NCBI RefSeq assembly: GCF_026340255.1
Contig: NZ_JAPEPJ010000001.1
Coordinates: forward strand, 2,225,001-2,289,000
Length of the DNA stretch: 64,000 nt
Source of the DNA: Streptomyces sp. NBC_01408
GTDB taxonomy: Bacteria > Actinomycetota > Actinomycetes > Streptomycetales > Streptomycetaceae
Direction of reading: 5' to 3'
Below are positions 2,378 through 19,892 of this stretch, piece after piece; positions within the stretch are counted from its first letter, which is position 1, and each line of letters starts with the position of its first letter. The notes under the pieces are model-generated. The model had not been told where the DNA came from. It was given only the letters and a program-made list of their open reading frames with translations, and did no database searches. The translations under genes were made by a program, and so were the position numbers.

Positions 2378-2539
2378 ATGGAGAACCTTGACGTCATCGA
2401 GATCGAGGACGACATCGTCGAGTTCGAGTCCGCTGAGGACAATGCGGCGAACGTTGCCAACATCGGCAACATTGGCAACATCGGAAATATCGGCAACATC
2501 GGCAACATCGGAAATATCGGCAACATCGGCAACATCTGA
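2378..2539 (+). CDS. RiPP precursor peptide with (Asn-Ile-Gly)8 core
   Basis: This short gene has an excellent ribosome binding site (GGGGAGGTGA, 2363-2372) eight bases before ATG 2378. The 53-residue product has two halves. Residues 1-27 form an acidic leader (MENLDVIEIEDDIVEFESAE, then DNAANVA) with ten Asp/Glu and no basic residue. Residues 28-53 are eight Asn-Ile-Gly units plus a terminal Asn-Ile, after an Asn-Val-Ala pre-unit. Cys, Thr, Lys, Arg, His, Trp and Tyr are absent and the only Ser is in the leader. Its position directly before a gene with a PqqD-like recognition domain and a TldD/TldE pair supports a precursor role. The family is not one I know. Upstream in-frame extension to 2333 is possible but has no comparable ribosome binding site. 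Confidence 0.85.
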   Translation: MENLDVIEIEDDIVEFESAEDNAANVANIGNIGNIGNIGNIGNIGNIGNIGNI

Positions 2540-2550
2540 TGAAGCTCGCT

Positions 2551-2575
2551 GGCGGGGGCCTTTCCGGCCCCCGCC
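2551..2575 (+). terminator. Attenuator hairpin between precursor and enzymes
   Basis: GGCGGGGGCC (2551-2560) and GGCCCCCGCC (2566-2575) make a perfect 10-bp GC stem with a TTTCC loop, 12 bases after the precursor stop codon. Partial termination here would keep the precursor transcript in excess over the enzyme operon, a common arrangement in RiPP clusters. Confidence 0.75.
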
Positions 2576-2600
2576 ACATTACGGGGAGGGTCTGCCGGAC

Positions 2601-3710
2601 GTGGCGCGCTCGATCATAGAAGAAAAGATGGAAGCGGCGCGCAAGCTCGCCCGCGTGCTTTCCGATAGCAATGACGGGTCGATCGACTCGATATACATCG
2701 CCGGAAGTCTGACGGCTGGGCTCGGTAACCCCACCAGCGACGCCGATCTGTTTGTCCTCTACGCCAAAGAAGCGGCGATGGGCGATGATGTATCGCAGTA
2801 CAACGTTGACGGACACCGGGTCGACGTGGAGCGATACACCCTCGCGTTCGTCGAGGAGGCCGTCGGCGCGATCACGTCGTTCCGGCTTCAGCGGGACAAC
2901 CTGACGGACCTGCACAAACTCCCGTCCAAGCTGGATTTCGTCTGCCGTCTGTACACGTCGGAGACCTTGCTCTCGTCTCCCGCGCTCGAAGGCTTCAAGC
3001 AGCGCATCGTCGCGTGCATCGGCGACATTCGTCAGGTCGCGGTCAACTACTCGGCGATTGCCATCAACGGGCACCTTGAGGACTTCCTCGGCGCCTCCGT
3101 CGACGGTGACCTCGAAACGGCCGCGCTCGTCGGGCAGGATCTCACCGCTTACGCCGGCAAGGCCGTCGCGGCGGCCTCGGGCGACCTGTACTACAGCAAG
3201 AAGTGGGTCTACAAGCAGCTCGCGCGCAACCCCGTCGAGGGTTTCCCGACCGACACGTTCACGGATTTCCAGCGTGGCACCTGGACCGGTCGGGGCCCCG
3301 AGGCCGCCGAGGAGCTGATCTTCTTCGTCCAGACCTGCATAGCCGTGAGCCAGCTCCTCAGCCGCCAGGGCGTCCCGCTGGACGTCTGGCCGGCCTGGAC
3401 CGCGCCGTCAGTGCCCGCCGCCGACGGTCTGTGGCGCAACCCCTCGTACAACGTCCTCGGCCAGAGCGACGGCATCCTGCTCCACTGGGAGCTGCGCCGG
3501 CAGCTGATGCTGCGCGACCCCGCCGCGTTCGTGTGGGCCCTGTGCGACGGCCGTGGGACGCAGGCCGTGGTCGAGGCCGTGGCGCGACTCGCCGAGCACG
3601 TTCCCGCGCTGAAGACGATGACCGCCGAGCGTGTCGAGAAGCTGCTCCAGTCGCTGCGTGAGCGCGACTTGGTGCGGGCAGAACCGTTCTCCGCTCTCAG
3701 CGCGATCTGA
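2601..3710 (+). CDS. Nucleotidyltransferase fused to a PqqD-like RRE domain
   Basis: The 369-residue protein starts at GTG 2601, ten bases after GGGGAGGG. Its N-terminal third carries a polymerase-beta-type nucleotidyltransferase signature: Gly35-Ser36 and the acidic pair Asp47/Asp49 in GSLTAGLGNPTSDADL, with Asp75 in VDVERY as a likely third carboxylate. The middle is helical and unrecognised. The last 90 residues (YNVLGQSDGILLHW, then FVWALCDGRGTQAVVEAVA, and a helix ending in LLQSLRERDLV) match the winged-helix pattern of PqqD, the RiPP recognition element. Such domains bind leader peptides, so I infer that this enzyme docks the acidic leader and transfers a nucleotidyl or related group. 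The frame runs open far upstream through the precursor, but that extension is a shadow of the repeats. Confidence 0.8.
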   Translation: MARSIIEEKMEAARKLARVLSDSNDGSIDSIYIAGSLTAGLGNPTSDADLFVLYAKEAAMGDDVSQYNVDGHRVDVERYTLAFVEEAVGAITSFRLQRDNLTDLHKLPSKLDFVCRLYTSETLLSSPALEGFKQRIVACIGDIRQVAVNYSAIAINGHLEDFLGASVDGDLETAALVGQDLTAYAGKAVAAASGDLYYSKKWVYKQLARNPVEGFPTDTFTDFQRGTWTGRGPEAAEELIFFVQTCIAVSQLLSRQGVPLDVWPAWTAPSVPAADGLWRNPSYNVLGQSDGILLHWELRRQLMLRDPAAFVWALCDGRGTQAVVEAVARLAEHVPALKTMTAERVEKLLQSLRERDLVRAEPFSALSAI

Positions 3711-3734
3711 TCGGTCCGGGGGATGGGAAGCGTG

Positions 3735-5099
3735 ATGAGCGAGGGAACTGCGGACGGCGGCGGCGCCGAACGGCTCCTGGAGCTGGCGCAGTGGGCGGTG
3801 GAGTGTCTGCAGGGCTCGGCGGACTACGTACAGGTCTACGCCGAGAGCACTGTCGAGGTGCGCGTCGAGTGCCTGGACGGCGACGTGCTCGCCACCTGCG
3901 TCGAGCCCCGTGAGGGGCTCGGCTGCATGGTCCGCAAGGACGACCGCTGGCGTCACCGCGCCTTCTCCGTGACGGAACTCGGTTCGCTGCCCTCATGGTT
4001 GGGGACCGCGCCGCAGGACGGCCCCGACGGCATCGGCGTTCGGTGGCCGGAGCGCGAGGACGTGGACTTCACGCCCGTGGCGGCGCGGGACTGGCTCGTC
4101 CAGGACGCCCGGACACCCCACTCCCTGCGCACGACGGAGGACTTCACCGCGCGCACCGTCGCCGTGGCCGACACCGAGGGCGTGCGGGCGGCCTCCGTCT
4201 CCCGCCTGGTGCGCCGCCGCCTCGAAGCCACCGTCACGACCGACGGCGGACACTACCGGGGCCTCAACCGGTGGCTGGAACGCGGCCCGACGGCAGGCCG
4301 TGGTGCGGGCAGTGACGCGACGCTCCCCCGGGAGGTGGCGCGCGAGGCGCTGGGTCACGCACGCGACTCCGCGCTCGCCGCCCTGCGGGGGAACCGCCGC
4401 ACCCCCGTGGTCTTCGGTCCCACCGCAGCAGTCGGCTTCCTGCACGAGCTCGTCGGGCACGCTCTGGAGGGCGACAACTTCGCCATGCGCAGCGACTACA
4501 TCGCCGCACTGCGCAAGCCGGGCGCCGTCCCCGCCGTGCTCTCGCTGTACGACGACGCGACCCTCGCCGACGGCTACGGCTCGTACGCCATCGACGACGA
4601 GGGCAACACCGGCCGCACCACCGTCCTGGTGGCCAACGGGGAGATCGGCTCGCCGCTCACCTCCGTACGTGCCGCACAGCGCCACGGCTACACGCCCACC
4701 GCGAACGGCCGCCGCCGGGACTACCGCGAGCTGCCGCTGCCCCGGGCCAGCAACACCGTGGTCCGGCCCGGGTCCGAGGACCCGGCCGCTCTGCTCGAAG
4801 CCGGATCCGAGGGCGTGCTCCACGTCGGCTGCCTGGGCGCCGGAATGATCAACCTCGCGACCGGCGAGTTCTCGTTCGCGGCTCTCAACTGCAGCTACAT
4901 CACACCCGACGGCCACCGCGTCCCCGTCCGTGACGTCAGCATCTTCGGCGACGCTCTGGACGTCCTGGGCCGCATCGAAGCCATCGGTTCGGACTTCGGC
5001 GGCGACAGCATCACGTGTGGAAAGCAGGGCCAGATGATCGGGATCGGTCTCTTCTCGCCTTCGATGCGCTACTCCGCACTGGATTGGAGTGCCGCATGA
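3735..5099 (+). CDS. tldD: TldD-like metalloprotease subunit
   Basis: The 454-residue protein carries the TldD zinc motif HELVGHALEGD at about residues 237-247 and the distal Cys ligand in CGKQGQ (Cys428), so it looks catalytically intact. TldD with TldE forms a heterodimeric protease that threads unfolded peptides. It matures microcin B17 and is used for leader removal in several RiPP pathways. ATG 3735 is chosen because GGGAAG lies just before it; ATG 3723 has no usable spacing. The stop overlaps the tldE start by four bases (ATGA). I infer that it trims the acidic leader from the modified NIG peptide. Confidence 0.9.
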   Translation: MSEGTADGGGAERLLELAQWAVECLQGSADYVQVYAESTVEVRVECLDGDVLATCVEPREGLGCMVRKDDRWRHRAFSVTELGSLPSWLGTAPQDGPDGIGVRWPEREDVDFTPVAARDWLVQDARTPHSLRTTEDFTARTVAVADTEGVRAASVSRLVRRRLEATVTTDGGHYRGLNRWLERGPTAGRGAGSDATLPREVAREALGHARDSALAALRGNRRTPVVFGPTAAVGFLHELVGHALEGDNFAMRSDYIAALRKPGAVPAVLSLYDDATLADGYGSYAIDDEGNTGRTTVLVANGEIGSPLTSVRAAQRHGYTPTANGRRRDYRELPLPRASNTVVRPGSEDPAALLEAGSEGVLHVGCLGAGMINLATGEFSFAALNCSYITPDGHRVPVRDVSIFGDALDVLGRIEAIGSDFGGDSITCGKQGQMIGIGLFSPSMRYSALDWSAA

Positions 5100-6444
5100 G
5101 GGTGCTGGAGAACAAAACCGCTCAGGGTCTGGCCACGGCGGCCGCCGTCGAGGACGCCCTGCACGCGGGCGAGCACGCGGCCACCCACCTCGAACGGACC
5201 GCCCGGCGCCGGCTCACGGCGGACCAGGACGGCCGCAAGCGGCTCTTCGTCGACGAAGGGGAGTTCGGCGGCTTCGTACGCCTCGGCCGGGACGGCCGGG
5301 AGCTGTACCTCAATGCCAAGGAGCTGAACGCGCAAGGCGCGGCCGGACTCCTCGGGAGCGGCCGCCGGTTCTTCCATCTCGGCAGCGCCGCCCCCGCGGC
5401 AGCACACGGCGTGGCCCACCACCGCGAACGATCCGCCGACGGCGGCTGGGAGACCACTGCCGAGCGCCTCGACATGGGCGCCGCGGCCGCCGGCGCGGCC
5501 GCGCTGTCCGACGCCCTCGCCGCCCGGCTGCACGGCGGGCAGGGCGTCGGCAGCCTGCAGATCTCCGACGTGCTGCGCGAGTCGGTGTTCGCGGACAGGT
5601 CGGGGACCCGGCTCTGGGACCGCTGCTACGGGGTCGAGCTCACTGCCGTCGCCACGAGTGCCGACGGCACCCGAGCCGTCTCCGCCTCCCGGTACGCCAC
5701 CGGGCTCGACGGGATCGACCCGGCGTGCCTGGGCCGCGAACTGAGCCTGATGGAAGCCGGCATGGCCCCCGGGGAGCAGCGCTTCGAGGGCTCCCGCGTC
5801 GTCTTCGCCCCCAGCGCGGCCGCCCAGCTGCTGCGGGCCCTGACGCAGACGGTCCTGTTCAACCCGATCACGAGCCCCGTCGCACTGGCCGCCGCGCTCG
5901 TGGACGAGGGGCCCCGTCCGGACGCGTACGGCGCCCGCTCCTTCGACTGCGAGGGTTCACCGACCGGCCGTACGGAGCTCATCGGGGTCGACGGCGTGCA
6001 GCGCGCCGTCGCCACCCGCAAGGCGCACGTCGGCGGTGCGCCGGACGAGGCCGGCGGGAGCGGGCGGCTGACCGGGCACGCTTGGTGGAACCCGCTGAAG
6101 AACTTCCCGCAGCCGACGGCGAGCAACATCCGGCTGACCCCGACCGGCGCCGGGTCCGACCTCCTGGCCGGCGAGCGCTGCGTGGTCGTGGACGCCCGGA
6201 CCCTGGGCGTCGAGGAGTTCCGTTCCGGTGGCCAACTGGCCTTCCGGTTGCTGGCCGCCCGTGCGGTGGACGGCGTCCCCCAGGGTTCCCTCCGTCCCAT
6301 GTCCGTCGAGGGCGGGGCCATCGACTTCCTCGCCTCCGTCACGGCCGTCGGCGACCACGTCTCGTACTTCCCCGGCCCGATCCCGGCCGGAGGCGGCTAC
6401 ATGGAGATGGACCTCACACGGGTCACCTCGAAAGAGAGAGAGCG

Positions 6445-6448
<4 letters not shown>
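5096..6448 (+). CDS. tldE: TldE/PmbA-like protease partner
   Basis: This 450-residue protein is encoded with an ATGA overlap after tldD. It has the general U62/PmbA fold pattern, including the C-terminal stretch with NIRLTPT and a terminal glycine-rich segment, but lacks the HExxxH zinc motif, as TldE subunits do. It should form the non-catalytic half of the TldD/TldE protease. A four-base overlap also links it to the ABC transporter gene, so protease and exporter are produced together. Confidence 0.88.
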
Positions 6449-7388
<940 letters not shown>

Positions 7389-7392
<4 letters not shown>

Positions 7393-8192
7393 CTGCCGTG
7401 ACAACGAAGCCCGCACGCTACGACGCCGGCCGGACGGGCTGGTTCCTGCCCACCTTCGTACGGGCCCTGACCGATCAGCTGCGCATGCACGCCTCCAGCC
7501 CCATGGCCGTCTTCTCCACCCTGGCGATGCCGTGCGTGTTCGCGTTCGTCGTGCACGCCAACGCCAGCGGCGGCGGCGCCGCGCGCGAGACCACCGGTGA
7601 CATGGCCGTCGGCTCCGCGGGAATCGGCATGCTCGACTCGATCATCGTGCTCGTCGTCGTCAGCCTGATGGGCGAGAAGCAGTGGAAGACGCTGTACGCG
7701 GCGCTGGGCAGCCCCGGCGGACTCGTCCCGGTGGTGCTCGGCCGACTGACCGGCACCGCCGTGCAGTCGCTGACCGCCCTGCCCGGCACGCTGGTCATCC
7801 TGGTCCTGCTGTTCGGCCTCGGCGACGGCTTCGACTGGACACGCTGGCTGATCGGCGGCGTGTTGCTCGCCTTCTCGACCGCGTCCGTGGTGGGTCTGCT
7901 CGGCTTCGCCGTGCTCCGCTATCCGTACTCGGCTGGCATGACCAACGGCCTGACGGGCCTGGTCATGGCCCTCAGCGCGCTCATCGTTCCGCAGTCCGCC
8001 CTGCCGGGCCCGGTCCAGAAGCTCGCGTTCGTCATCCCGCAGTCCCACGTCATGGCATGGGTGCGCGGCGGCGGTACTGGTGAGCTGCTCGCGGCGCTCG
8101 CGCTGACCGGCGTCTTCTGCGGGCTCGTCGTCCTCGCTGTCCGGCGGCTGGAGCTCATCGCCCGCCGGCAGGCCCTGCCCCTGGAGGCCTGA
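7389..8192 (+). CDS. ABC-2 type permease (exporter subunit 1)
   Basis: The 267-residue membrane protein has about six hydrophobic segments, the ABC-2 permease pattern, and a long extracytoplasmic loop after the first segment. It starts within the ATPase stop (ATGA) and is followed after five bases by a second permease. The pair probably forms a heterodimeric channel for the RiPP product. Confidence 0.88.
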
Positions 8193-8197
8193 CCCTC

Positions 8198-8992
8198 ATG
8201 GAAACCCGCATCGAGGAACGCCCGGGCAGCGCGGCGAGTGCCGCCCTGCGCGGGGCGGCGCTCTCGTACCGAGCCCTGTTCACCTGGCTGAACCCGCTCG
8301 GCTACCTGAGCTCCCGCATCGTCCGGCCGATCGGCATGGCCATCGCCTTCATCTCCCTGTCCACGTACTACGGGGCCAACGCCGGGCGCATGCTCGTGGC
8401 CTCCAGCCTGCTGGCCGGCGCCGGCGCCGTCGTCTACGGCATGGCGCTGTCGATCGGCAACGAGCGCTCGTTCGGCACCCTGGGGATCTGGCTCGCCGCA
8501 CCCCAGAACAAGCTGGCCTCGGTCTGCCAGCGGGCCCTGCCGCACATCGTGGACGGGTTCGTCGGCGGTCTGTGCACCTACCTGGTGTGCTGCCTGCTCT
8601 ACACCACGCTGCCGATGGGGTTGCCGGAGTTCGCCGGCCTGCTGGCCGTCGGCGTGCTGACCACCGCCGGGTTCGGCCTGTCGCTGTCGGCTCTCGCGCT
8701 GGTCGTCGAGGACCTGTTCGTCGGGCCGAACATGGCGGAACTGGTCCTCATGGTCCTGTCGGGAACCCTCGTTCCACAGGACCGGCTGCCGGGATTCCTG
8801 GTGCCGGTGAGTGAGGCCATGCCGCTCACCCACGTGATGGACGCGGTCGAGCGGAGTCTCGCCGGGCGTCCGCACGGGTCGGCCCTCCTGGTCGAACTCC
8901 TGGTCGGCGCCGCCTGGTTCGTGGTCAGCGTGCTCTTCCTGCACCTGGCGGTCCGCCGCGCGTCAGCCCGCGCCGAGCTCGGCCACGCTTAG
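8198..8992 (+). CDS. ABC-2 type permease (exporter subunit 2)
   Basis: The 264-residue permease has about six predicted membrane segments, from the IVRPIGMAIAFISL segment to the C-terminal FVVSVLFLHLAV segment. It is similar in size and layout to the gene before it but distinct in sequence, which suggests a heteromeric transporter. The 20-base gap before the next gene contains its AAGAGAG ribosome binding site. Confidence 0.87.
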   Translation: METRIEERPGSAASAALRGAALSYRALFTWLNPLGYLSSRIVRPIGMAIAFISLSTYYGANAGRMLVASSLLAGAGAVVYGMALSIGNERSFGTLGIWLAAPQNKLASVCQRALPHIVDGFVGGLCTYLVCCLLYTTLPMGLPEFAGLLAVGVLTTAGFGLSLSALALVVEDLFVGPNMAELVLMVLSGTLVPQDRLPGFLVPVSEAMPLTHVMDAVERSLAGRPHGSALLVELLVGAAWFVVSVLFLHLAVRRASARAELGHA

Positions 8993-9012
8993 AACACCCA
9001 AGAAAGAGAGAA

Positions 9013-10293
9013 ATGAGCAACATGTCTACCTTCAGCCGTGAGGCCAACGCCTGGATCGACCCACGAGGAGCCTTCGGCGCCACGGCGAGCTGGCGTGACG
9101 GCTTGATCACCCGCGACAACCTCGCGGCCCGCCCGCTGGCGGCCGCCGAGTCCTACTTCACCCCCTCGCTGCCGGTCGAGGTGCACTGCCACGGGCTGGG
9201 CGACGTCGACTTCTCGAACTTCGCGGAGATCGACCTCTTCGCGGTCGACAAGCACGCCGCCTCCGAGGGCCTGCTGTGCATCCCCACCCTCTACCTCCGC
9301 CAGGAGCGGCTCGACGGCTTCGTCGAATTCATGCGGGGCTTCGCCGCGCTGAAGGCCGACGGCCAGCTGCCGTTCGTCCCCGCCATCGCGTTGGAGGGGC
9401 CGCTCGTCGCCAGCTTCGGCGGCACCCCCGCCTCCTCCGTGTGGGCCCCCTCCAAGGAGGAGTGGGAGAAGCTCGCCGGCTGCGGCCCGCTGGGCCTCGT
9501 CTACATCATGATCTCGCCGGACGCGCTCCAGTCCAGCTCCTACCTCGCGGCCCAGTTCACCCCGGACCACCCGTCGCTGGAGTGGATCGTCACGCGCCTG
9601 GTCGAGAACGGGGTCCGCCCGGCGCTCGGCCACTTCGCCAAGGAGAACCCGCAGATCGGGGCGGACTGCATCGAGGAGGTGCTCGCGACGGCCGAGGCCG
9701 CCGACTGCCCGCACTCCGGTGTCCGCGTGGTCACCGACCACCTCTTCAACGAGATGCCGCTGCTGATCAAGCACGCCTTCCGCACCTCCAGGGCCCGTGC
9801 CAACCGGGACGCGCTGCTCGCGAGCTACGACCTGCCGTCCTGGAACCTGAAGGACCTGCACGAGCAGGTCGGACCCGTCCCGGCAGCCATCATGCGCGGC
9901 GCCCACCAGGGCCGCATCGCCGCCTGCCTCAACTTCGACGGCGAGCACGTCGACTTCGCCATCGCCAAGCGCGCCATCGAGATCGTCGGCCCGCAGAACA
10001 TGATGCTGATGACCGACCGCAGCGACACCGCGCGGCTGGCCGGCCAGAACCTCCACCAGGAGGCGGGCAGCGACCTCTGGTACCAGGAGCAGGGCGTGGT
10101 CGCGGCGGGCACCCAGCCGATCGACCAGCAGATCGCCAACGTACGAGCGCTCGGGATCTCCGAGACCGACATCTGGCACCTCGTGTCCTTCACGGCGTAC
10201 CGCACCTTCTTCCCCGAGATCGACCTCGGGGCGGAGCAGTTCCGGCTGGGGTGCCAGGTGGACGCCGAGCGGCAGCGCATCGCGCTGCTCTGA
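9013..10293 (+). CDS. NagA-like amidohydrolase in the RiPP cluster
   Basis: The 426-residue protein carries the metal-binding pattern of N-acetylglucosamine-6-phosphate deacetylase and related amidohydrolases. It has HxH (His58/His60 in EVHCHG), Glu128 in ALEGP, His207 in GHF, His243 in DHLFNEM and Asp335 in LMTDRS. All catalytic and metal ligands appear present. NagA removes an N-acetyl group; here the substrate is unknown and could be an amide of the modified peptide, for example an Asn side chain or a protecting acyl group. It occupies the middle of the operon after the exporter genes. Orphan placement away from amino-sugar genes argues against a housekeeping role. Confidence 0.75.
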   Translation: MSNMSTFSREANAWIDPRGAFGATASWRDGLITRDNLAARPLAAAESYFTPSLPVEVHCHGLGDVDFSNFAEIDLFAVDKHAASEGLLCIPTLYLRQERLDGFVEFMRGFAALKADGQLPFVPAIALEGPLVASFGGTPASSVWAPSKEEWEKLAGCGPLGLVYIMISPDALQSSSYLAAQFTPDHPSLEWIVTRLVENGVRPALGHFAKENPQIGADCIEEVLATAEAADCPHSGVRVVTDHLFNEMPLLIKHAFRTSRARANRDALLASYDLPSWNLKDLHEQVGPVPAAIMRGAHQGRIAACLNFDGEHVDFAIAKRAIEIVGPQNMMLMTDRSDTARLAGQNLHQEAGSDLWYQEQGVVAAGTQPIDQQIANVRALGISETDIWHLVSFTAYRTFFPEIDLGAEQFRLGCQVDAERQRIALL

Positions 10294-10342
10294 ACCTCGC
10301 GAGATCCGTCGAGGCAGTGAAAGCACAGCAAGGAGAGCAGCG

Positions 10343-11287
10343 ATGGGGACGACGGGGAACCCCGACGAGCGCGCGCACGACATACCGCCGCAGCTTCTGG
10401 CGGCCGTAACCCGCTCGCCGGTCAAGGCACGGCTGTTCGGCGCGGACACCTACCTGCGGGAAGCCGCCTGGACCTTCGGCGAGCACCTGGACGCCCTACA
10501 GGGCATCACCCTGTGTGTCCTCAAGCCGGAGGCCGCCGTGGGCCGCCGCTACGGAACGGCCCTGGAAGCGCTGCAGGAGCACGGCTTCCGTCCGGTCGAC
10601 GTCCTGCGGTTGCGCCACAGCCGACTGACGATCCGCGAAACGTGGCGCTTCCAGCTGAACTTCGCCGACCGTGAGCGGATCGCCACCATGGACCTGTGCC
10701 TGCAGTCCCTGGACAGCGTCCTGCTCGTACTCCAGGACGAACGCCACCGGCCCGGCGACGTTCCGGCATCCGTCCGGCTCGCCGCGCTCAAGGGCCCGGC
10801 CACCGCCGAGCTGCGCCGGCCCGAGCACCTGCGCGAGCGGCTCGGGGCACTCAACGGCCTGTTCAACTTCGTGCACACGGCAGACGAGCCCATCGACGTC
10901 CTGCGTGACCTCGGACTCCTGCTGGAACAGCCGCAACGCGAACGGGTGCGCGGGCGCCTCCTCGCACGCCACGACGCGCGCGAAGAGGCCCGTCGGATCT
11001 GCGACGCGATCGAACGCGAGACGGAACCGCACGATCTCGACCCGGAACAGAGCTGGCTGCGACTCGCGAAGTCCGTCGCCCCCGCCGGTGAGGCGGCGCG
11101 CGCGAGGGCGGCGGGGCGCACCGTCACGCCCGCCGAACTGCTGCGTGCCGCACAGCACCCCGACGCGGACCCCGGCGACCTGTGGGACCTGCTGTCCATC
11201 CTCACAGCCACCGTGCGGTTCAACACCCCGGACATCGAGCGCATCTTCCCCAACGTCCTGCTCGGCGCCTGGCAGGAGGAGCAGTGA
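10343..11287 (+). CDS. NDK-like protein 1 with C-terminal extension
   Basis: The first 200 of 314 residues follow the nucleoside-diphosphate kinase fold. The core is TLCVLKPEAAVG (Lys61), with an Arg in ASVRLAALKGPA and the phospho-His motif NFVHTADEP (His178), corresponding to N-x-x-H-G-S-D in NDK. An extra 40 residues precede the domain and about 110 helical residues follow it, so the protein is twice the usual length. GGAGAG before ATG 10343 is the ribosome binding site. A paralogue lies at 12469. They could transfer phosphate or bind nucleotide for the nucleotidyltransferase; this is inference. Confidence 0.72.
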   Translation: MGTTGNPDERAHDIPPQLLAAVTRSPVKARLFGADTYLREAAWTFGEHLDALQGITLCVLKPEAAVGRRYGTALEALQEHGFRPVDVLRLRHSRLTIRETWRFQLNFADRERIATMDLCLQSLDSVLLVLQDERHRPGDVPASVRLAALKGPATAELRRPEHLRERLGALNGLFNFVHTADEPIDVLRDLGLLLEQPQRERVRGRLLARHDAREEARRICDAIERETEPHDLDPEQSWLRLAKSVAPAGEAARARAAGRTVTPAELLRAAQHPDADPGDLWDLLSILTATVRFNTPDIERIFPNVLLGAWQEEQ

Positions 11288-11508
11288 GCCCTACCATCTG
11301 CATCTGCAACCGCGTCACCGAAGACGAGATCGTCGGCTGGATCCGGCGCGGCTTCACCACCGTGGACGACATCGGCGAGCAGTGCGGCGCCGGGCAGGGC
11401 TGCGGCGGCTGCCGGGACGAGCTCATCGAGCTCATCGAGTTCATCGACGATTTCGCCGACGAGGCAGCCGCCCCGTCGGCGCAGGCGGTGACCGATGCAC
11501 GGAGCTGA
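11284..11508 (+). CDS. BFD-like [2Fe-2S] protein
   Basis: The 74-residue protein has the four-cysteine pattern of bacterioferritin-associated ferredoxins: Cys-Ile-Cys near the start and CGAGQGCGGC in the middle, on a small helical scaffold. It starts at GTG 11284 inside the stop of NDK-like 1. As a [2Fe-2S] carrier it may donate electrons or act as a scaffold for another enzyme of the cluster. No oxidoreductase partner is obvious apart from the cupin. Confidence 0.85.
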   Translation: MSPTICICNRVTEDEIVGWIRRGFTTVDDIGEQCGAGQGCGGCRDELIELIEFIDDFADEAAAPSAQAVTDARS

Positions 11509-12472
11509 AGAGCAGCCCGCGGCGTTCTGGCGGACCGCCCTGGAGGAAGCCGAAGCCGTCCCGCTCGACCCGGCGACCGTCGAGGAGCCCACTGCGCTGC
11601 CCGGAACCGCGGTGTACGACTTCTCCTTCGCCGGCGCCCACGGCCACCGGATCCACGGCTGGCTGATGGTTCCGCGCGCCGGCGACGGCCCGCTCCCGTG
11701 CGTCGTCCAGTACCTCGGGTACGGCGAGGGCCGCGGCCATGCGCTGGACCGGCTGCTGTGGCCGGCCCTGGGATACGCCACGCTGGTCGTCGACACCCGC
11801 GGGCAGAGCGGCGCCGGCGGGCGACGGGGGGCGACACCGGACCCGGTCGGCCTCACCCACCCGCAGGTGCCCGGCTTCACCACCCGGGGCGTCCTGGACC
11901 CCCGGACCTACTACTACCGGGACGCCTACACCGACGCCGTACGGGCCGTGGCGGCGGCCGCTGCGCACCCCGCGGTCGACCCCGCCCGCGTCGCGACCGC
12001 CGGCTGCAGCCAGGGCGGGCAGCTGGCCCTGGCGGCGGCAGTGCTGAGCCCGCTGGTCGCCGCCGCACTCGTGGAGTCGCCGTTCCTGTCCGCCGTCACC
12101 GACCTGGCACGGCTGCCCGACCGGCAGCCGTACCGGGAGCTGCTGCGCTTCGCCGAGTCCTACCCGGACCTCGCGCCGCGCGCCCTGCGAAGCCTGCGCC
12201 TCTTCGACGTAGCCGAACTGGCCGTCCACGGGCGCTGCCCGGCACTGTTCTCCGTTGCCGGCCGGGACGGCCGGTGCGCGCCGGAGACCGGATACGCCGC
12301 GCATGCCCGCTACCCGGCCGAGAAACGCCTCCTCACCTGGCCAATGGCCGAACACGCCGCCCCCAACACACCGTTGCGGCTGGCCGAGGCGGAGTTCCTC
12401 GCGGACATCTTCACCAGGCAGCCGGCTCAGGCGGACACCCCCGCCTTCTGGCAGGAAGGACACGACACATGA
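11495..12472 (+). CDS. Acetyl xylan esterase/cephalosporin-C deacetylase-like hydrolase
   Basis: The 325-residue alpha/beta hydrolase resembles the CE7/AXE1 family. It has the DTRGQSGAGG turn, the GVLDPRTYYYR stretch, the nucleophile Ser172 in GCSQGG, a candidate acid in AGRDGRCAP and His in MAEH. It overlaps the BFD gene by 14 bases and the second NDK-like gene by four. CE7 enzymes deacetylate small O-acetyl substrates. Together with the NagA-like enzyme this gives the cluster two potential deacylases acting on different bond types. Confidence 0.82.
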   Translation: MHGAEEQPAAFWRTALEEAEAVPLDPATVEEPTALPGTAVYDFSFAGAHGHRIHGWLMVPRAGDGPLPCVVQYLGYGEGRGHALDRLLWPALGYATLVVDTRGQSGAGGRRGATPDPVGLTHPQVPGFTTRGVLDPRTYYYRDAYTDAVRAVAAAAAHPAVDPARVATAGCSQGGQLALAAAVLSPLVAAALVESPFLSAVTDLARLPDRQPYRELLRFAESYPDLAPRALRSLRLFDVAELAVHGRCPALFSVAGRDGRCAPETGYAAHARYPAEKRLLTWPMAEHAAPNTPLRLAEAEFLADIFTRQPAQADTPAFWQEGHDT

Positions 12473-13443
12473 GGCTCCTGGACTCCGACAGCCCACCGGT
12501 CGACCGGCTGACCGAGGTGAGCGCGGACATCCGCGAGGCCGTCACCTGGTCGGACGAGAAGGCCGACCTGTATGCGGTGGACCAGTACTTCCGCGAAGCA
12601 TGCTGGACCTTCGGCGACATCGTCCCCCAGATGCTCGGCGTCGCGCTGTGCATGCTCAAGTCCGAGGCGACGGCCGGACGCAGGCTGCGGCCCGCGCTGC
12701 GCATCCTGCGGGAGGAGGGCTTCCAACCCGTCGACGCGGTGCGCTTCCGGCACGACCGGCTGACGATCCGCGAGGTCTGGCGCTATCAGTTCAACATCGC
12801 CTCCCGCGAGCGGATCGAGGCGATGGACGCCATCCTGCCCAGCACCGACACCGTTGCGCTGGTGCTCAGGGACGAGCGGTGGACGCCCGGCGCCCTGCCC
12901 GCAGCGGTGCGGCTCAACGCGCTCAAGGGGCCGGCGGACCCCGCGCTGCGCGGCCCGCAGCACCTGCGCCACCGGCTCGGCGTCGTCAACGGCCTGTTCA
13001 ACTTCACGCACATCTCCGACGAACCGGCCGACGTGCTCCGCGAGCTTGCGGTGATCTGTGACGAGCCCCGACGCGAGCTCGTACGGCAGCGCATCCTCGA
13101 AGGGCACAACGCCCGCCCCGAGGTCCTCGCCGTCTTCCAAGACCTCGAACGCCGGCACCCCGAGCACGACTTCGACCTGGAGGCGAGCTGGCAGCGGCTC
13201 GCGGCCGTCCCCGGACCGCTGGGCGAGCCGGCCCGTCGCCGCGCGCAGGGCGAGGATCCGTCGCTCGACGGGATACTCGCGCTGACGCACACCACACCCG
13301 TGGACGATCCCCACCGCTGGGACCTGCTGACCGTGGTGACGCACCTCCTGACGGAGATGAACGTGCCCGGAGTGACTCCCACGGTCCCCAACGTCACGGA
13401 AGTTTGGCGCCCCGGAGGCCGGGCGGTCGGAGCCGCCTCGTGA
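12469..13443 (+). CDS. NDK-like protein 2 with C-terminal extension
   Basis: This 324-residue paralogue of the protein at 10343 shares the NDK-like core (ALCMLKSEATAG with Lys64), the Arg in AAVRLNALKGPA and the His motif NFTHISDEP (His181). The canonical Pro after Lys is replaced by Ser, and the N-terminal and C-terminal extensions are kept. Two diverged copies in one operon suggest a heteromer or two successive phosphotransfer steps. It is joined by four-base overlaps to the esterase before and the MOSC gene after it. Confidence 0.72.
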   Translation: MRLLDSDSPPVDRLTEVSADIREAVTWSDEKADLYAVDQYFREACWTFGDIVPQMLGVALCMLKSEATAGRRLRPALRILREEGFQPVDAVRFRHDRLTIREVWRYQFNIASRERIEAMDAILPSTDTVALVLRDERWTPGALPAAVRLNALKGPADPALRGPQHLRHRLGVVNGLFNFTHISDEPADVLRELAVICDEPRRELVRQRILEGHNARPEVLAVFQDLERRHPEHDFDLEASWQRLAAVPGPLGEPARRRAQGEDPSLDGILALTHTTPVDDPHRWDLLTVVTHLLTEMNVPGVTPTVPNVTEVWRPGGRAVGAAS

Positions 13444-14096
13444 CGGCAGTGCTGTCGACCGTCAACCTCGGCGTCGAGAGCACCGGCCAGTGGACGGACG
13501 TCGGCCGCAGCGGAATCGACAAGCGCCCCGTCGCCCACAGGGTGACGGCTCGCACCTGGGGCCTGGAGGGCGACCTGATCGCCAACCCGAAGGTGCACGG
13601 CGGCCCGGACAAGGCCGTCTACGCCTTCGCCCGCGAGGACGCCGTCTTCTGGGAGCGGGAACTCGCGCGCGAGGTCGCTCCCGGCAACATCGGTGAGAAC
13701 TTCTCCACCCTCGGCCTCGACATCACCGGCGCCGAGGTGGGGGAGCAATGGGCCATCGGCGAAGCCGTGTTCGAGGTGATCAGAGCCCGTAAGCCGTGCC
13801 GCGTCTTCGCCGGCTTCTGGGACGTGCCCGACCTGGTCAAGCGCTTCATCGCCCACGGGGCGCCCGGCGCGTACCTGCGCGTGCTGAAGGAGGGCACCGT
13901 CGGCGCAGGGGACCCGATCGAGATCATCAAGCGCCCCGGCCACGGCGTGACCATCGGCTTGATGCTGCGGGCCCTGACCACGGAGCGCCATCTGCTGCCG
14001 CGCTTCCTCGACGCCCCCGAGATGCTCCCCAAACACCACGAGAAGGCCCGCCGGTGGCTGGCCGCACAACAACAGACGGAGAATGCGACGCGATGA
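13440..14096 (+). CDS. MOSC-domain protein (YiiM-like)
   Basis: The 218-residue protein starts at GTG 13440 in the preceding stop. It shows the YiiM-type MOSC pattern: an N-terminal strand with LEGDLIANPKVHGGPDKAVY, then GENFSTLGLDIT, and the conserved Cys in RKPCRVF, followed by a helical tail of 3-alpha type. MOSC domains handle molybdenum cofactor or sulfur; YiiM proteins reduce N-hydroxylated bases. Here it may reduce or carry sulfur for the peptide modification. That assignment is inference. Confidence 0.85.
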   Translation: MTAVLSTVNLGVESTGQWTDVGRSGIDKRPVAHRVTARTWGLEGDLIANPKVHGGPDKAVYAFAREDAVFWERELAREVAPGNIGENFSTLGLDITGAEVGEQWAIGEAVFEVIRARKPCRVFAGFWDVPDLVKRFIAHGAPGAYLRVLKEGTVGAGDPIEIIKRPGHGVTIGLMLRALTTERHLLPRFLDAPEMLPKHHEKARRWLAAQQQTENATR

Positions 14097-14755
14097 CGAC
14101 GACCGACACCCAACCGCTGATCGCCCCGGCCCGGCTGGCCGCACTGGACTGGAGCGACATGCCGGCCCTGCACGCCCCCATGGAGGAGCTGCTCGACGAG
14201 CTGGTGTCCCCGAAGTGGCTGAACGACGCCTTCGACCACGTGCTGCGCACTCCTGAGCTCCTCAACCAGTGCGAGCGGCTGCAGGAGCTCGACCGCGTCG
14301 TCCTGGTCAACGACAAGGCATCCGACGTCCGCATCCGGCTGCACGTCTTCACCGGCAGCGGCTTCGACCGCCCGCACAACCACCGGTGGAGCTTCGGCAG
14401 CCGCATCCTGCACGGCAGCTACCAGCACTACCTCTTCGGGGACTACGAGAACCTGGACACCGAAACGCGCATCGGCTCCCCGGCGCTGGTCCGCGAGGAG
14501 ACCGCCGGGTCCGGCTACGTCATCCGGCACACCATGGTCCACACGGTCAGCTCGGCGCCCGACACCACCTCGCTGATCGTCCGCGGCCCCTCGGAGAAGG
14601 ACGCCTTCGTGGTGATGAACCGCGACACGGGCGAGGCCTGGTGGCAGTACGGCCAGAAGGCGGAGAAGCCGGAGGACCAGGCCAAGCGTCGGCTGGGAGC
14701 GGAGAGGGTCGAGGAGATCCGTCAGCTCCTGATCAGCCAGGGCTGCATCCGTTGA
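14093..14755 (+). CDS. Cupin-like metal-binding protein
   Basis: The 220-residue protein has a jelly-roll metal pattern: HNHRWSFGSRILHGSYQHY in the middle and a second His in MVHTVSS about 60 residues on. This resembles the cupin/cysteine-dioxygenase-like fold with a possible mononuclear iron site. It ends with a charged helix. ATG 14093 overlaps the MOSC stop by four bases. It is the best candidate for an oxygenase in the cluster, though an isomerase or binding protein cannot be excluded. Confidence 0.65.
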   Translation: MTTTDTQPLIAPARLAALDWSDMPALHAPMEELLDELVSPKWLNDAFDHVLRTPELLNQCERLQELDRVVLVNDKASDVRIRLHVFTGSGFDRPHNHRWSFGSRILHGSYQHYLFGDYENLDTETRIGSPALVREETAGSGYVIRHTMVHTVSSAPDTTSLIVRGPSEKDAFVVMNRDTGEAWWQYGQKAEKPEDQAKRRLGAERVEEIRQLLISQGCIR

Positions 14756-15465
14756 CCGGGAACGGGAGCGAGCCGGTCGAGCTCGTCATCTTCGACTGCG
14801 ACGGCGTACTCGTCGACAGCGAGCCCATCGCCGTGCGGACCCATGTCGCTCTCGGCGCCGAGCTGGGCTGGCCGTTGACCGAAGCCGAGGTCATGGAGCG
14901 CTTCGTCGGCCGCTCCACCACCTCCATCGGCGAACTGATAGCCGATCGGGTCGGCCCTGATACCGCACGGATCTGGGACGAGCGCTTCCGCGAGATGCAT
15001 GCACTGGCGGTGGACACCGGCTTGACGTCCGTCGACGGCATCGAGGAAGCCCTCGACGGCCTGGAGGCAATGGGCTTCGGGCCGCAGCAGTGGTGCATCG
15101 CCTCCAGCGGCAGCCACGAGAAGATGCGGCACACCCTGGGCCGGGTCGGACTGTACGACCGCTTCGAAGGCCGGATCTTCAGCGCCCACGAGGTCGAGCG
15201 TGGCAAGCCCGCCCCCGACCTCTTCCTGCACGCCGCCCGCTCCCTCGGAGTGGACCCGGCGCGCTGCGCGGTCGTCGAGGACAGCCGTTTCGGCATCCAG
15301 GCCGCCACGGCCGCCGGCATGCGCGGCTTCGGCTACGCAGGTGGCTTGACACCCGCCGAGTGGCTGACGGTCCCCGGGACGGTGGTCTTCACCGACATGC
15401 GGCAGCTGCCGGCCCTGCTCGCGGCGCACTGGGCGATCGGGGTCGGACATGCCTCTGGAAATTGA
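14752..15465 (+). CDS. HAD-family phosphatase (beta-phosphoglucomutase-like)
   Basis: The frame begins at TTG 14752, which overlaps the cupin stop by four bases. No ATG or GTG lies closer to the catalytic motif, so the TTG is the likely coupled start. HAD motifs are complete: FDCDGVLVDSEP, the Ser in CIASSGS, Lys in GKPAPD and acidic VVEDS. A helical cap follows motif 1, as in beta-phosphoglucomutase-like enzymes. In this cluster it could remove a phosphate installed by the nucleotidyltransferase or NDK-like proteins. Confidence 0.88.
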   Translation: MTGNGSEPVELVIFDCDGVLVDSEPIAVRTHVALGAELGWPLTEAEVMERFVGRSTTSIGELIADRVGPDTARIWDERFREMHALAVDTGLTSVDGIEEALDGLEAMGFGPQQWCIASSGSHEKMRHTLGRVGLYDRFEGRIFSAHEVERGKPAPDLFLHAARSLGVDPARCAVVEDSRFGIQAATAAGMRGFGYAGGLTPAEWLTVPGTVVFTDMRQLPALLAAHWAIGVGHASGN

Positions 15466-15931
15466 GCGCAAGTTCCTGCTGGACCGCTTCACACCGCCGC
15501 CCGCGGCGGTCGCGGAGCCCATCGAGCAGGGCTACATCGCGATCACTCCGGACGGTACCGAGGTCCGTCTGCGCAGCATTGCCGGCAAGTACGTCCTCGG
15601 CGTCAAGCGCGGCACCGGCTCGCTGTCGCGTATCGAGGTGGAATGTCCGCTGACGGAGTCGGAGTTCGACGAGCTGTGGCCGGCGACGGCCGGTGCCCGA
15701 CTCGTGAAGACCCGCTACACCGTGCCGCTGGAAGGCACGACGGTGTACGTGGACGTCTACGCGGAGGGCTTGGCGGGTCTGCACACGGCCGAAGTCGAAT
15801 TCGCCTCGGAGGCGGCGGCCGAGGACTTCACCCCGCCGCCCTGGTTCGGCTCGGAGGTCACCAGAGCCAAGCCCTACAAGAACCGCATCCTGGCGACCGA
15901 GGGCCTCCCGCGCTTTCCGGCCGGCCACTGA
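15449..15931 (+). CDS. CYTH-domain triphosphate tunnel enzyme
   Basis: The 160-residue protein begins with the diagnostic EIERKFL motif (ExExK) and continues with alternating charged strands (EVRLRS, LGVKRG, RIEVECPL, VDVYAEGL, AEVEFAS) that line the triphosphate tunnel. CYTH enzymes act on inorganic or nucleoside triphosphates. The ATG lies 17 bases inside the HAD gene. It closes the operon ahead of a strong terminator and strengthens its phosphate/nucleotide theme. Confidence 0.9.
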   Translation: MPLEIERKFLLDRFTPPPAAVAEPIEQGYIAITPDGTEVRLRSIAGKYVLGVKRGTGSLSRIEVECPLTESEFDELWPATAGARLVKTRYTVPLEGTTVYVDVYAEGLAGLHTAEVEFASEAAAEDFTPPPWFGSEVTRAKPYKNRILATEGLPRFPAGH

Positions 15932-17656: not shown

Positions 17657-18222
17657 CAGAGCCCCTCCAGCAGCGAGCGGCGCTTCACGCCGTTGAACGA
17701 CTGCTCGATCTCGGCATTGGTCTTGTTGTAGTCCCGGGCTCCGGCGCGCAGGCTCTCGGCGATGTGCGCCAGCCAGCCCGCGACGGTTCCGGCCTGCCGC
17801 TCCCACTGCGTGTGCGCCGTACGGATGCTCTTGGCCGACTCCCAGCCCACCATCGCGGCGACCGCCGCCTGGGCGGGCTCCTCCAGCGCGGCCGCCGGCT
17901 TGGTGAAGGCGGTGTGGATCTCGTCCGCCTGGCCCGCCGCCTTGTTGAGGATCGCGGGCTCGATCCTGAGCCGGTCCTGGGACGGGCCGCCGGGTGCGGG
18001 TGCGAAGGGCGAGCCGAGCGACGGGGGTTTCTGGAGGAAGGGCGACGAGGGCTGCTGGAAGAGGGGCGGGCCGGGCTGCGGCAGGAGCGGCGTCAGCGGG
18101 TCCCGGTAGCTGTCCGCGGGAGGGGCCTTGGTGACGCCGCCCATCCACTCGGAGTTGTGCCGTTTGAGCTCATCCGGCGTCAACGGCAACTGGGCCGGTT
18201 CGGGCAGTTTGTCGTCGGCCAT
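17656..18222 (-). CDS. WXG100-related helical partner protein
   Basis: Start ATG 18222 gives 188 residues. The first 90 are Pro-rich and disordered (LLPQPGPPLFQQP). The last 95 form two long helices with Ala/Gln-rich heptads and a VGWES turn in place of WXG. This is the usual partner architecture for ESX-like pairs. It is encoded directly upstream of, and overlapping, the larger WXG protein. Confidence 0.7.
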   Translation of the reverse strand: MADDKLPEPAQLPLTPDELKRHNSEWMGGVTKAPPADSYRDPLTPLLPQPGPPLFQQPSSPFLQKPPSLGSPFAPAPGGPSQDRLRIEPAILNKAAGQADEIHTAFTKPAAALEEPAQAAVAAMVGWESAKSIRTAHTQWERQAGTVAGWLAHIAESLRAGARDYNKTNAEIEQSFNGVKRRSLLEGL

Positions 18223-18310
18223 GCGTGGATCCCCCTGTGCGCGAACGCGAATACGAACACATTTGCGTCCGTACTTTAGTCGAGTGGTCCGGAGGACCGA
18301 GAATGGGTCC

Positions 18311-19654
18311 ATGGCGATCAGCGGTGCGAGCGATCAGGCGACGGCGCAGGCGTGGGCGGCCCTCGGTGGGGCGGCCGAGGCGGTCGGGCGAGTGCGGTAC
18401 GGCGGGGCCGGCGGGCTCGGCGAAGGGCCCCTTCCTGTACGGGAATTGGCGCGGGCGACGGTGGGTGCGTGCGCCCTGGCGGCGGCGGAGCTGGGCGCGG
18501 TGCGGGCCGGGGGAGACGTGGACGGCGTAGGCCCGCTCGCGGTGGACGAAGGGGCCGTGGCCACCGCGTTCGTGAGCGAGCGTCACCTGCGCGTGCAGGG
18601 GCGTGCACCGGTGAACTTCGCGCCGCTGTCCGGGTTCTGGCGGACTGCGGACGGATGGGTGCGGACGCACGCCAACTATCCGCACCACGAGGCGGCGCTC
18701 GTGCGCGCGCTGGGGCTGGGCTCGGCGACCCCGGAGGGCCTGCGGGAGGCGGTGGCCCGGTGGTCGGCCGTGGAGGTGCAGGAGCGGGCGTACGGGGAGG
18801 GCGGGCTGGCCGTCGCGGTGGCGGGGGAGTACGGGGAGCCGCAGCCGCTGGTGGAGGCCGTACGGGACTCCGGCGGGCCGGGCCGGGCGCTCGGGCCGGC
18901 TCCAGAGGGGCGGCCCGCGGCCGGGGTGCGGGTACTGGACCTGACCCGGGTCATCGCCGGACCCGTGGCCACGCGGACCCTCGGGCTGCTCGGGGCGGAC
19001 GTGCTGCGGATCGATGCGCCCGGGCTGGCGGAGGCGGACGACGCGTACGCGGACACCGGCTTCGGGAAGCGGTCGGCGCTGCTGGACCTGGGCGGCGCGG
19101 AGGACCGGGCGGTGTTCGAGGGGCTGCTGGCGGAGGCCGACGTGGTGGTCACGGGGTACCGGCCGGGCGCGCTGGAGCGGTACGGGCTCGGGGCGCGGGA
19201 CCTGCTGCGGCGCAGGCCCGGGCTGGTGGTGGCGGAGCTGTGCGCGTGGGGGTGGCAGGGGCCCTGGGCGCACCGGCGGGGGTTCGACTCGCTGGTGCAG
19301 GCGGGCTACGGGATCTCCGCGCGCTGTGCGGGCGCGGACGGCGTCCCGGGGGTGCTGCCGGCGCAGGCGCTCGACCACGGCACCGGGTACCTGGTGGCGG
19401 CCGGTGTGCTGCGGGCCCTGGCGGACGGGGGCGGGTACGCGCTGCGGTGCTCCCTGGCGGGGACGGCGTCGTGGCTGGTACGGGAGGTTCCGGCGGCGGG
19501 CCCGTCCGCCGGGCCGGGGTACTCGGCGCAGCCGTGGCTCCGGGACACGGACTCGGGGTACGGGGCGCTCCGGTACGCCGTGAGCCCCTTCGGTGACTGG
19601 GCGGCGGGTCCGTCACGGTGGGGCACGGATCGGGCCGGCTGGCTCCCGCGGTAG
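18311..19654 (+). CDS. CaiB/BaiF-type CoA-transferase family protein
   Basis: The 447-residue protein shows the family III CoA-transferase landmarks VRVLDLTRVIAGPVATRTLG, GLLGADVLRID and ADVVVTGYRPGALERYGL. It ends with a loop rich in Gly and Trp. The N-terminal 190 residues resemble a diverged second copy of the same fold, which suggests a fused or duplicated chain. It reads away from the WXG genes across an 88-base shared promoter region. The substrate is unknown. Confidence 0.82.
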   Translation: MAISGASDQATAQAWAALGGAAEAVGRVRYGGAGGLGEGPLPVRELARATVGACALAAAELGAVRAGGDVDGVGPLAVDEGAVATAFVSERHLRVQGRAPVNFAPLSGFWRTADGWVRTHANYPHHEAALVRALGLGSATPEGLREAVARWSAVEVQERAYGEGGLAVAVAGEYGEPQPLVEAVRDSGGPGRALGPAPEGRPAAGVRVLDLTRVIAGPVATRTLGLLGADVLRIDAPGLAEADDAYADTGFGKRSALLDLGGAEDRAVFEGLLAEADVVVTGYRPGALERYGLGARDLLRRRPGLVVAELCAWGWQGPWAHRRGFDSLVQAGYGISARCAGADGVPGVLPAQALDHGTGYLVAAGVLRALADGGGYALRCSLAGTASWLVREVPAAGPSAGPGYSAQPWLRDTDSGYGALRYAVSPFGDWAAGPSRWGTDRAGWLPR

Positions 19655-19892
19655 GCCCCTGCGGGCCCGCTGCCGGGGCTCCGCCGCAGGGGCTCCGCCC
19701 TCGGATCCTGCGCCTCGAACTCCCCCCGACTCCGTCCGGGGGATCGCCTGGCGGGGCTGGAGGGTGCGGCGCCGCCGCGGGGGCTCCGCCCCCGGGCCCC
19801 CGCGCCTCAAACGCCGGCGGGGCTGAAGATCGCCGTCGGCGGGGCTGGAGGGTGCGGCGGGGCTGGATTGGGCTCGGCTGTCGACGGGTGCT
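19655..19892. repeat. Intergenic region with REP-like palindromic repeats
   Basis: The 238 bases hold no gene. Two related GC-rich units occur. The clearer one (19779-19825) reads GGGGCTCCGCCCC, then GCGCCTCAAACGCCGGCGG followed by GGCTG. The same unit recurs at about 23618-23669, 53581-53627 and, inverted, 53977-54023. It probably acts as a terminator for the convergent genes. Confidence 0.75.

Follow-up and report, generated by a model that had tools for sequence, protein, structure and literature searches.

A Streptomyces gene cluster with a tripeptide-repeat precursor and a nucleotidyltransferase fused to a predicted leader-binding domain: a candidate undescribed class of ribosomal peptide natural product

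A stretch of 64,000 nucleotides from Streptomyces sp. NBC_01408 (the window) carries, at positions 2378-15931, 16 genes on one strand that very probably specify a ribosomally synthesized and post-translationally modified peptide (RiPP). The first gene encodes a precursor built of tripeptide units; the second encodes a nucleotidyltransferase (NTase) with a C-terminal PqqD-type RiPP recognition element (RRE). Comparative evidence establishes both the cluster and its class as real, and the cluster looks like a natural-product class that has yet to be described. As sequence comparison defines it, the conserved core is the peptide, the NTase-RRE, the TldD/TldE pair and an exporter, and the cluster type so defined is carried by Streptomyces and related soil bacteria.

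The precursor peptide

The precursor open reading frame (ORF; 2378-2539) has an ATG start just downstream of a Shine-Dalgarno-like GGGGAGGTG. Its product consists of the leader MENLDVIEIEDDIVEFESAEDNA, then ANV, ANI and eight GNI units, and Tandem Repeats Finder gives the repeat array a score of 143 (27-nucleotide period, 97% matches). The tiny tandem-repeat peptide gene that a first-pass annotation had placed at the head of the cluster is thus borne out, and it has the leader and core of a short RiPP precursor. A chance repeat or a wrong reading frame was considered and rejected, because the unit rule recurs at the same position in nine other loci with synonymous codon variation. The rule is X-Asn-Val/Ile, or X-Asp-Val/Ala in sister loci; the middle Asn of the 83 Asn-type units is encoded by AAC 75 times and by AAT 8 times. 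Copy number ranges from 5 to 15 units among these loci (the 15 of locus L138 were counted by eye), and in 10/10 the chain stops exactly on a unit border, with Val, Ile or Ala at the C-terminus. The leader motif is present in all 14 peptides compared, from the ten loci and four database proteins, a fifth database match (P0082) having been excluded as chance-like prior to the count.

The conserved core and its relatives

The first-pass annotation had made its proposal of a RiPP cluster depend on NTase, NDK-like (nucleoside diphosphate kinase-like) and TldD genes occurring together with a short repeat peptide elsewhere. They do: peptide, NTase-RRE and TldD are found in all ten clade loci, and an NDK-like gene in eight of the ten within the regions covered, in one of these eight about 13 kb away. 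The RiPP interpretation is supported by this co-occurrence, with two refinements: the core set is the one given above, and the accessory module that follows it is complete in only five of the ten loci. TldE is recognised by similarity in 9/10 clade loci, and an ABC transporter with two permeases is likewise present in 9/10; at L004 an ORF that by eye resembles a major facilitator superfamily (MFS) transporter takes its place.

In the window's NTase gene both PqqD (31.4 bits, cut-off 23.4) and NTP_transf_2 (23.5, cut-off 21) exceed their Pfam cut-offs, as the earlier reading of a PqqD-like leader-binding fusion had it; an RRE within the modifying enzyme is therefore present by sequence, and leader binding is predicted. 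The protein has the ANT(4')-like fold, a nucleotidyltransferase domain with a helical domain, and its catalytic aspartates (GS-x(n)-DxD and a third Asp) are intact. Kinship with the ANT(4')/kanamycin nucleotidyltransferases is recognisable by fold only, at ~11-12% identity: sequence searches of the PDB found no relative (remaining matches unrelated, E over 0.5), and a search of a plasmid collection gave a single match, at 25%. The GS...DxD motif is also present in the full reading frame of the L053 NTase, which, like that of L136, enters the alignments and tree with its N-terminus cut by gene calling.

TldD keeps HELVGH and TldE has lost HExxxH, the pattern of M103 peptidases, so the assignment of the pair stands. 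So does that of the exporter, whose ATPase and second permease lie above the Pfam cut-offs and whose first permease lies slightly below (22.3 versus 26.9).

When 39 NTases are placed in a maximum-likelihood tree, all ten clade proteins (eight Asn-type, two Asp-type) share one side of a branch supported at 98/93 with ten database proteins, one of which, P0021, is the L004 protein itself; 18 NTases without a nearby repeat peptide fall on the opposite side. Beyond the clade, a protein search found at least 41 homologues and a scan of genome contigs five loci. Matches were found in at least 26 of 394 genomes in the family sample of L001's genome (at 1e-10), in 4 of 394 genomes of the class sample and in at least 5 of 220 in the family of G520 (both at 1e-15), and, at 1e-30, in at least 1/14, 6/70, 1/3 and 10/392 in further samples that overlap the earlier ones; the family and genus searches scored the best few candidates per genome, and their tallies are lower bounds. 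Most of these genome matches are distant, with tblastn identities to the window NTase mostly of 24-33%. For the 29 NTase places of the family sample the wider region was covered in all except G320, G096 and G028, in six cases (G022, G035, G053, G188, G327, G337) via the NDK-like loci.

Gene layout and the accessory module

The genes of the cluster, all on the + strand, are:

2378..2539, +, precursor peptide, 53 residues; counterparts lie upstream of the NTase in nine other loci
2601..3710, +, nucleotidyltransferase (ANT(4')-like, with HEPN-like helical part) with C-terminal PqqD/RRE, 369 residues, GTG start
3735..5099, +, TldD-like metalloprotease subunit with HELVGH; another possible start at 3723
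5096..6448, +, TldE-like partner without HExxxH
6445..7392, +, ABC transporter ATPase; above Pfam cut-off
7389..8192, +, ABC-2 type permease 1; slightly under Pfam cut-off (22.3 vs 26.9)
8198..8992, +, ABC-2 type permease 2; above Pfam cut-off
9013..10293, +, amidohydrolase-like protein with HxH; weak NagA match, relatives of 53-87% identity in 5/9 other clade loci
10343..11287, +, NDK-like protein 1; NDK-type His178 conserved
11284..11508, +, BFD-like [2Fe-2S] protein; Fer2_BFD above Pfam cut-off
11495..12472, +, acetyl xylan esterase family (AXE1) hydrolase; AXE1 above Pfam cut-off
12469..13443, +, NDK-like protein 2 (HISDEP)
13440..14096, +, MOSC domain protein with KPC motif; above Pfam cut-off
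14093..14755, +, "cupin-like" conserved protein with His motif; relatives of 82-89% identity in four other complete clusters
14752..15465, +, HAD-family phosphatase, TTG start overlapping the preceding stop; above Pfam cut-off
15449..15931, +, CYTH-like triphosphate-tunnel protein with EIERK; below Pfam cut-off

The layout confirms the earlier description overall. By the coordinates, 10 of the 15 junctions overlap by 4-17 nucleotides, and the genes that follow the exporter number nine, not ten. As had been stated, none of YcaO, LanB/C, radical SAM, ATP-grasp and P450 is among the Pfam domains of the 16 proteins (E up to 0.1).

Of the enzymes given a nucleotide/phosphate theme, the NTase and the HAD protein exceed their Pfam cut-offs; both NDK-like proteins (18.8 and 19.2 bits) and the CYTH-like protein (18.0) are under their Pfam cut-offs. 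These labels are rescued in part: NDK1 matches the NDK structure 6ay1 with a TM of 0.83, and the CYTH-like protein has the ExExK motif. His178, the active-site histidine of the NDK fold, is invariant in 23 alignment rows, and NDK-type activity is predicted. Of two supposed deacylases, the AXE1 protein is secure and the amidohydrolase has a weak NagA match only (E 0.0065). The [2Fe-2S] and MOSC assignments hold; the supposed cupin has a His motif and no Pfam match. Neither it nor the amidohydrolase had an informative match in PDB sequence searches.

The complete module (amidohydrolase-NDK1-BFD-AXE-NDK2-MOSC-cupin-like-HAD-CYTH) is present in the window, L001, L002, L003 and L136, and was dropped from the core since it is complete in these 5/10 only. 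S. abyssomicinicus and S. seoulensis are among the carriers of a complete cluster. The rearranged neighbourhood of L005 (with L064) holds a single NDK-like gene and relatives of five other module genes (amidohydrolase, BFD, HAD, cupin-like and CYTH); L138, which is Asp-type, has one NDK-like gene with an adjoining carbamoyltransferase gene at 18037-19677; at L039 two NDK-like matches lie ~13 kb away. Relatives of part of the module also occur elsewhere without this peptide.

Upstream of the cluster, at 1169-1614 of the window, a tRNA-Ala gene (1169-1243) is followed by a 102-nucleotide direct repeat (1240-1341 and 1513-1614, 93%) that begins at the 3' end of the tRNA and resembles a duplicated attachment site.

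Association of the nucleotidyltransferase with NDK-like proteins

Among the same 394 genomes, the identity of the two samples being inferred from identical handles, 26 have an NTase match and 28 an NDK-like match; the overlap is nine genomes where 1.8 would be expected (P 1.7e-5). No more than 13 kb separates the pair in any of the nine, six of which have another, longer NTase (545-583 residues where present in L118-L127). Twenty NDK-like loci were examined, from 20 of the 28 genomes (G024, G033, G063, G146, G195 and G238 being left out, and G001 and G003 covered separately). An NTase is nearby in 14, in 13 of them inside 20 kb and in G030 in the neighbouring region; none is nearby in L110, L113, L114, L120, L122 and L128. 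L109, L112 and L115 were among the seeds of the model for the small NTase; one built from A1 also matches all 13. At L050, L052, L057, L078, L109, L111, L112 and L115 a small NTase has a separate PqqD protein adjacent or near. NTase and RRE are thus paired next to several different scaffolds, and an NDK-like enzyme is often present as well.

Several of these neighbourhoods are distinctive. L112 holds, by Pfam, asparagine-synthetase-like, CAAX-protease-like, AurF-like, formyltransferase and class III aminotransferase genes together with a small NTase, PqqD and an NDK-like gene, and further amidohydrolase-like, cupin-like and BFD genes; L115 has a similar set, judged by similarity and by eye, and both loci represent a cluster type that we did not recognise. 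L109 (G117:C73:2501-22500) has two NDK-like genes, PqqD with a small NTase, and phosphoenolpyruvate mutase and thiamine pyrophosphate enzyme genes (by Pfam), with an aminoethylphosphonate transaminase-like ORF (by eye) beside the phosphonate genes; a peptide-linked phosphonate pathway is possible there. NTase relatives in L040, L041, L042 and L056 stand beside a 640-677-residue protein and ABC exporter genes; the repeat peptide was not seen at these four. The protein is radical SAM in L041 (B12-binding match below cut-off), where it adjoins an NTase with a PqqD-like end, and is judged so by eye in the other three. In L045-L048, from Kitasatospora, the genus of L003, the NTase relative is accompanied by a CYTH-like gene (tblastn) and, by eye, by MFS, short-chain dehydrogenase/reductase (SDR) and thymidylate-kinase-like genes. 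In L116 and L117, and at the end of L039, an NDK-like pair lies beside ORFs that by eye are enolase-, ClpX- and Ppx/GppA-like; these housekeeping-like ORFs are possibly resistant-target copies.

A possible mechanism and its rivals

The RRE fusion suggests the peptide as the substrate of the NTase. The enzyme would nucleotidylate the Asn or Asp in every unit, the probable acceptor being the side chain of this constant middle residue. TldD/TldE would then cut the chain at unit borders into modified tripeptides, which the ABC exporter would likely secrete, and the NDK, HAD, CYTH, amidohydrolase, MOSC, BFD and AXE proteins may build or trim a nucleotide-derived group. TldD/E threads unfolded peptides, and the E. 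coli enzyme has been modelled to release tripeptides (PMC10885120); an array of tripeptide units closing on a unit border is consistent with a protease of this kind. Judged from sequence, this general scheme of nucleotidylation and tripeptide release is plausible, if somewhat short of an even chance. Its specific form is more tentative and rather doubtful: that the RRE-fused, aminoglycoside-type NTase nucleotidylates every Asn or Asp of the concatemer and TldD/E yields up to fifteen peptidyl-nucleotides, the logic of microcin C in multi-copy form.

A number of observations weigh against nucleotidylation with tripeptide release. Leaders of 9, 22, 23, 25, 26 and 27 residues are mostly no multiple of three; leader length therefore sets no phase, and stepwise release would have to begin with a cut at the leader border. 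Units were counted backwards from the C-terminus, halting at the first that breaks the rule, and the database relative P0079 ends in AII, outside it. At L053 a 430-residue ORF without TldE similarity stands where TldE would be, and L004 and L053 have no NDK-like gene within the regions covered (2/10); with the full module missing in 5/10, the basic reaction can thus do without the accessory enzymes. The control, in which none of 18 outside-clade NTase surroundings has the repeat peptide, is limited to ~10 kb on each side and to patterns derived from the known peptides (L139-L142 to a single repeat pattern). The Glu160/Ser swap among the NTases amounts to a single evolutionary event, Glu160 being the putative equivalent of the general base of kanamycin nucleotidyltransferase. 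The acceptor, moreover, could be another residue, the hydroxyl of a second substrate or the C-terminus.

The NTase might instead only activate the side chain, the nucleotide then leaving, so that the end product is a nitrile, an amidine, an imide or an amide to a small amine supplied by the accessory genes. Asn and Asp, which alternate between sister clades, both offer an activatable side-chain carbonyl, and aminotransferase and formyltransferase genes in L112 and the carbamoyltransferase of L138 would suit such chemistry; yet a partner ligase is not obvious, and Asp-type and Asn-type peptides should give different products. On balance this route is rather unlikely, though to be reckoned with. 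That the repeat chain stays whole, as a modified repetitive peptide such as a membrane-acting helix or solenoid from which TldD/E removes only the leader, is unlikely. The pore-forming polytheonamides are similar in their Asn, Val, Ile, Gly and Ala composition, which counts in favour of an intact chain, as does the removal by TldD/E of the leaders of microcin B17, klebsazolicin and a microcin C analogue (PMC10885120); against it are the variation from 5 to 15 units, the exact termination on unit borders, and the lack of any epimerase or N-methyltransferase domain among the 16 proteins (Pfam). A decidedly improbable alternative makes the peptide a mere scaffold, with a small molecule built on its C-terminus and clipped off by TldD/E. 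The ammosamide TldD/E-like Amm12/13 does take off a C-terminal dipeptide (PMC12424672), and the cluster is rich in small-molecule enzymes; a scaffold, however, gives no reason for 5-15 repeated units, and the LanB-type (PEARL) domain of pearlin pathways is missing from the 16 proteins (Pfam).

Relation to known systems

In microcin C, the peptidyl nucleotide is already established as an antibiotic principle. The microcin C family (MccA/MccB, and the TldD/E-processed McC of Yersinia pseudotuberculosis) resembles the predicted pathway in placing a nucleotide on the Asn of a ribosomal peptide and in maturation by TldD/E (PMC12250964, PMC10885120). It differs in that here there are many units and an ANT-type NTase fused to PqqD/RRE in place of MccB: no ThiF domain is found among the 16 proteins (Pfam), and none of the ten peptides ends in Asn. 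NTases occur in lasso peptide clusters (pseudomycoidin; NTase-B2 fusions), sometimes fused to a maturation protein, but there they tailor a phosphorylated lasso peptide (PMC8498205); an asparagine-synthetase-like cyclase is lacking among the 16 proteins. Pearlin clusters such as that of ammosamide share a short peptide and TldD/E-like genes (PMC12424672), whereas here the core is a tandem array and no PEARL enzyme (a truncated LanB) is present. By gene content, the cluster is neither a lasso peptide nor a pearlin cluster. Some daptide clusters hold NTase genes as secondary enzymes (PMC10036551), whereas here the NTase is the sole RRE-bearing enzyme, the daptide core enzymes not having been searched for by name. 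From the ANT(4') enzymes, with which it shares fold and catalytic aspartates, the NTase is set apart by its added PqqD/RRE domain and the adjacent precursor. The word nucleotidyl- did not turn up in a word search of the main text of a recent survey of RRE domains (PMC12710340), and no description of a known class under another name was recognised among the literature matches listed, a weak indication, as subscription journals are largely outside that coverage.

Significance

If the nucleotidylation reading is right, a polymerase-beta-fold nucleotidyltransferase would be added to RiPP biosynthesis as a class-defining enzyme type. The RRE-NTase together with X-N-Z/X-D-Z repeats would serve as a handle for finding such clusters, and the NTase/NDK-like partnership at other scaffolds, asparagine-synthetase-like in L112 and phosphonate in L109, would be tied to one chemistry.
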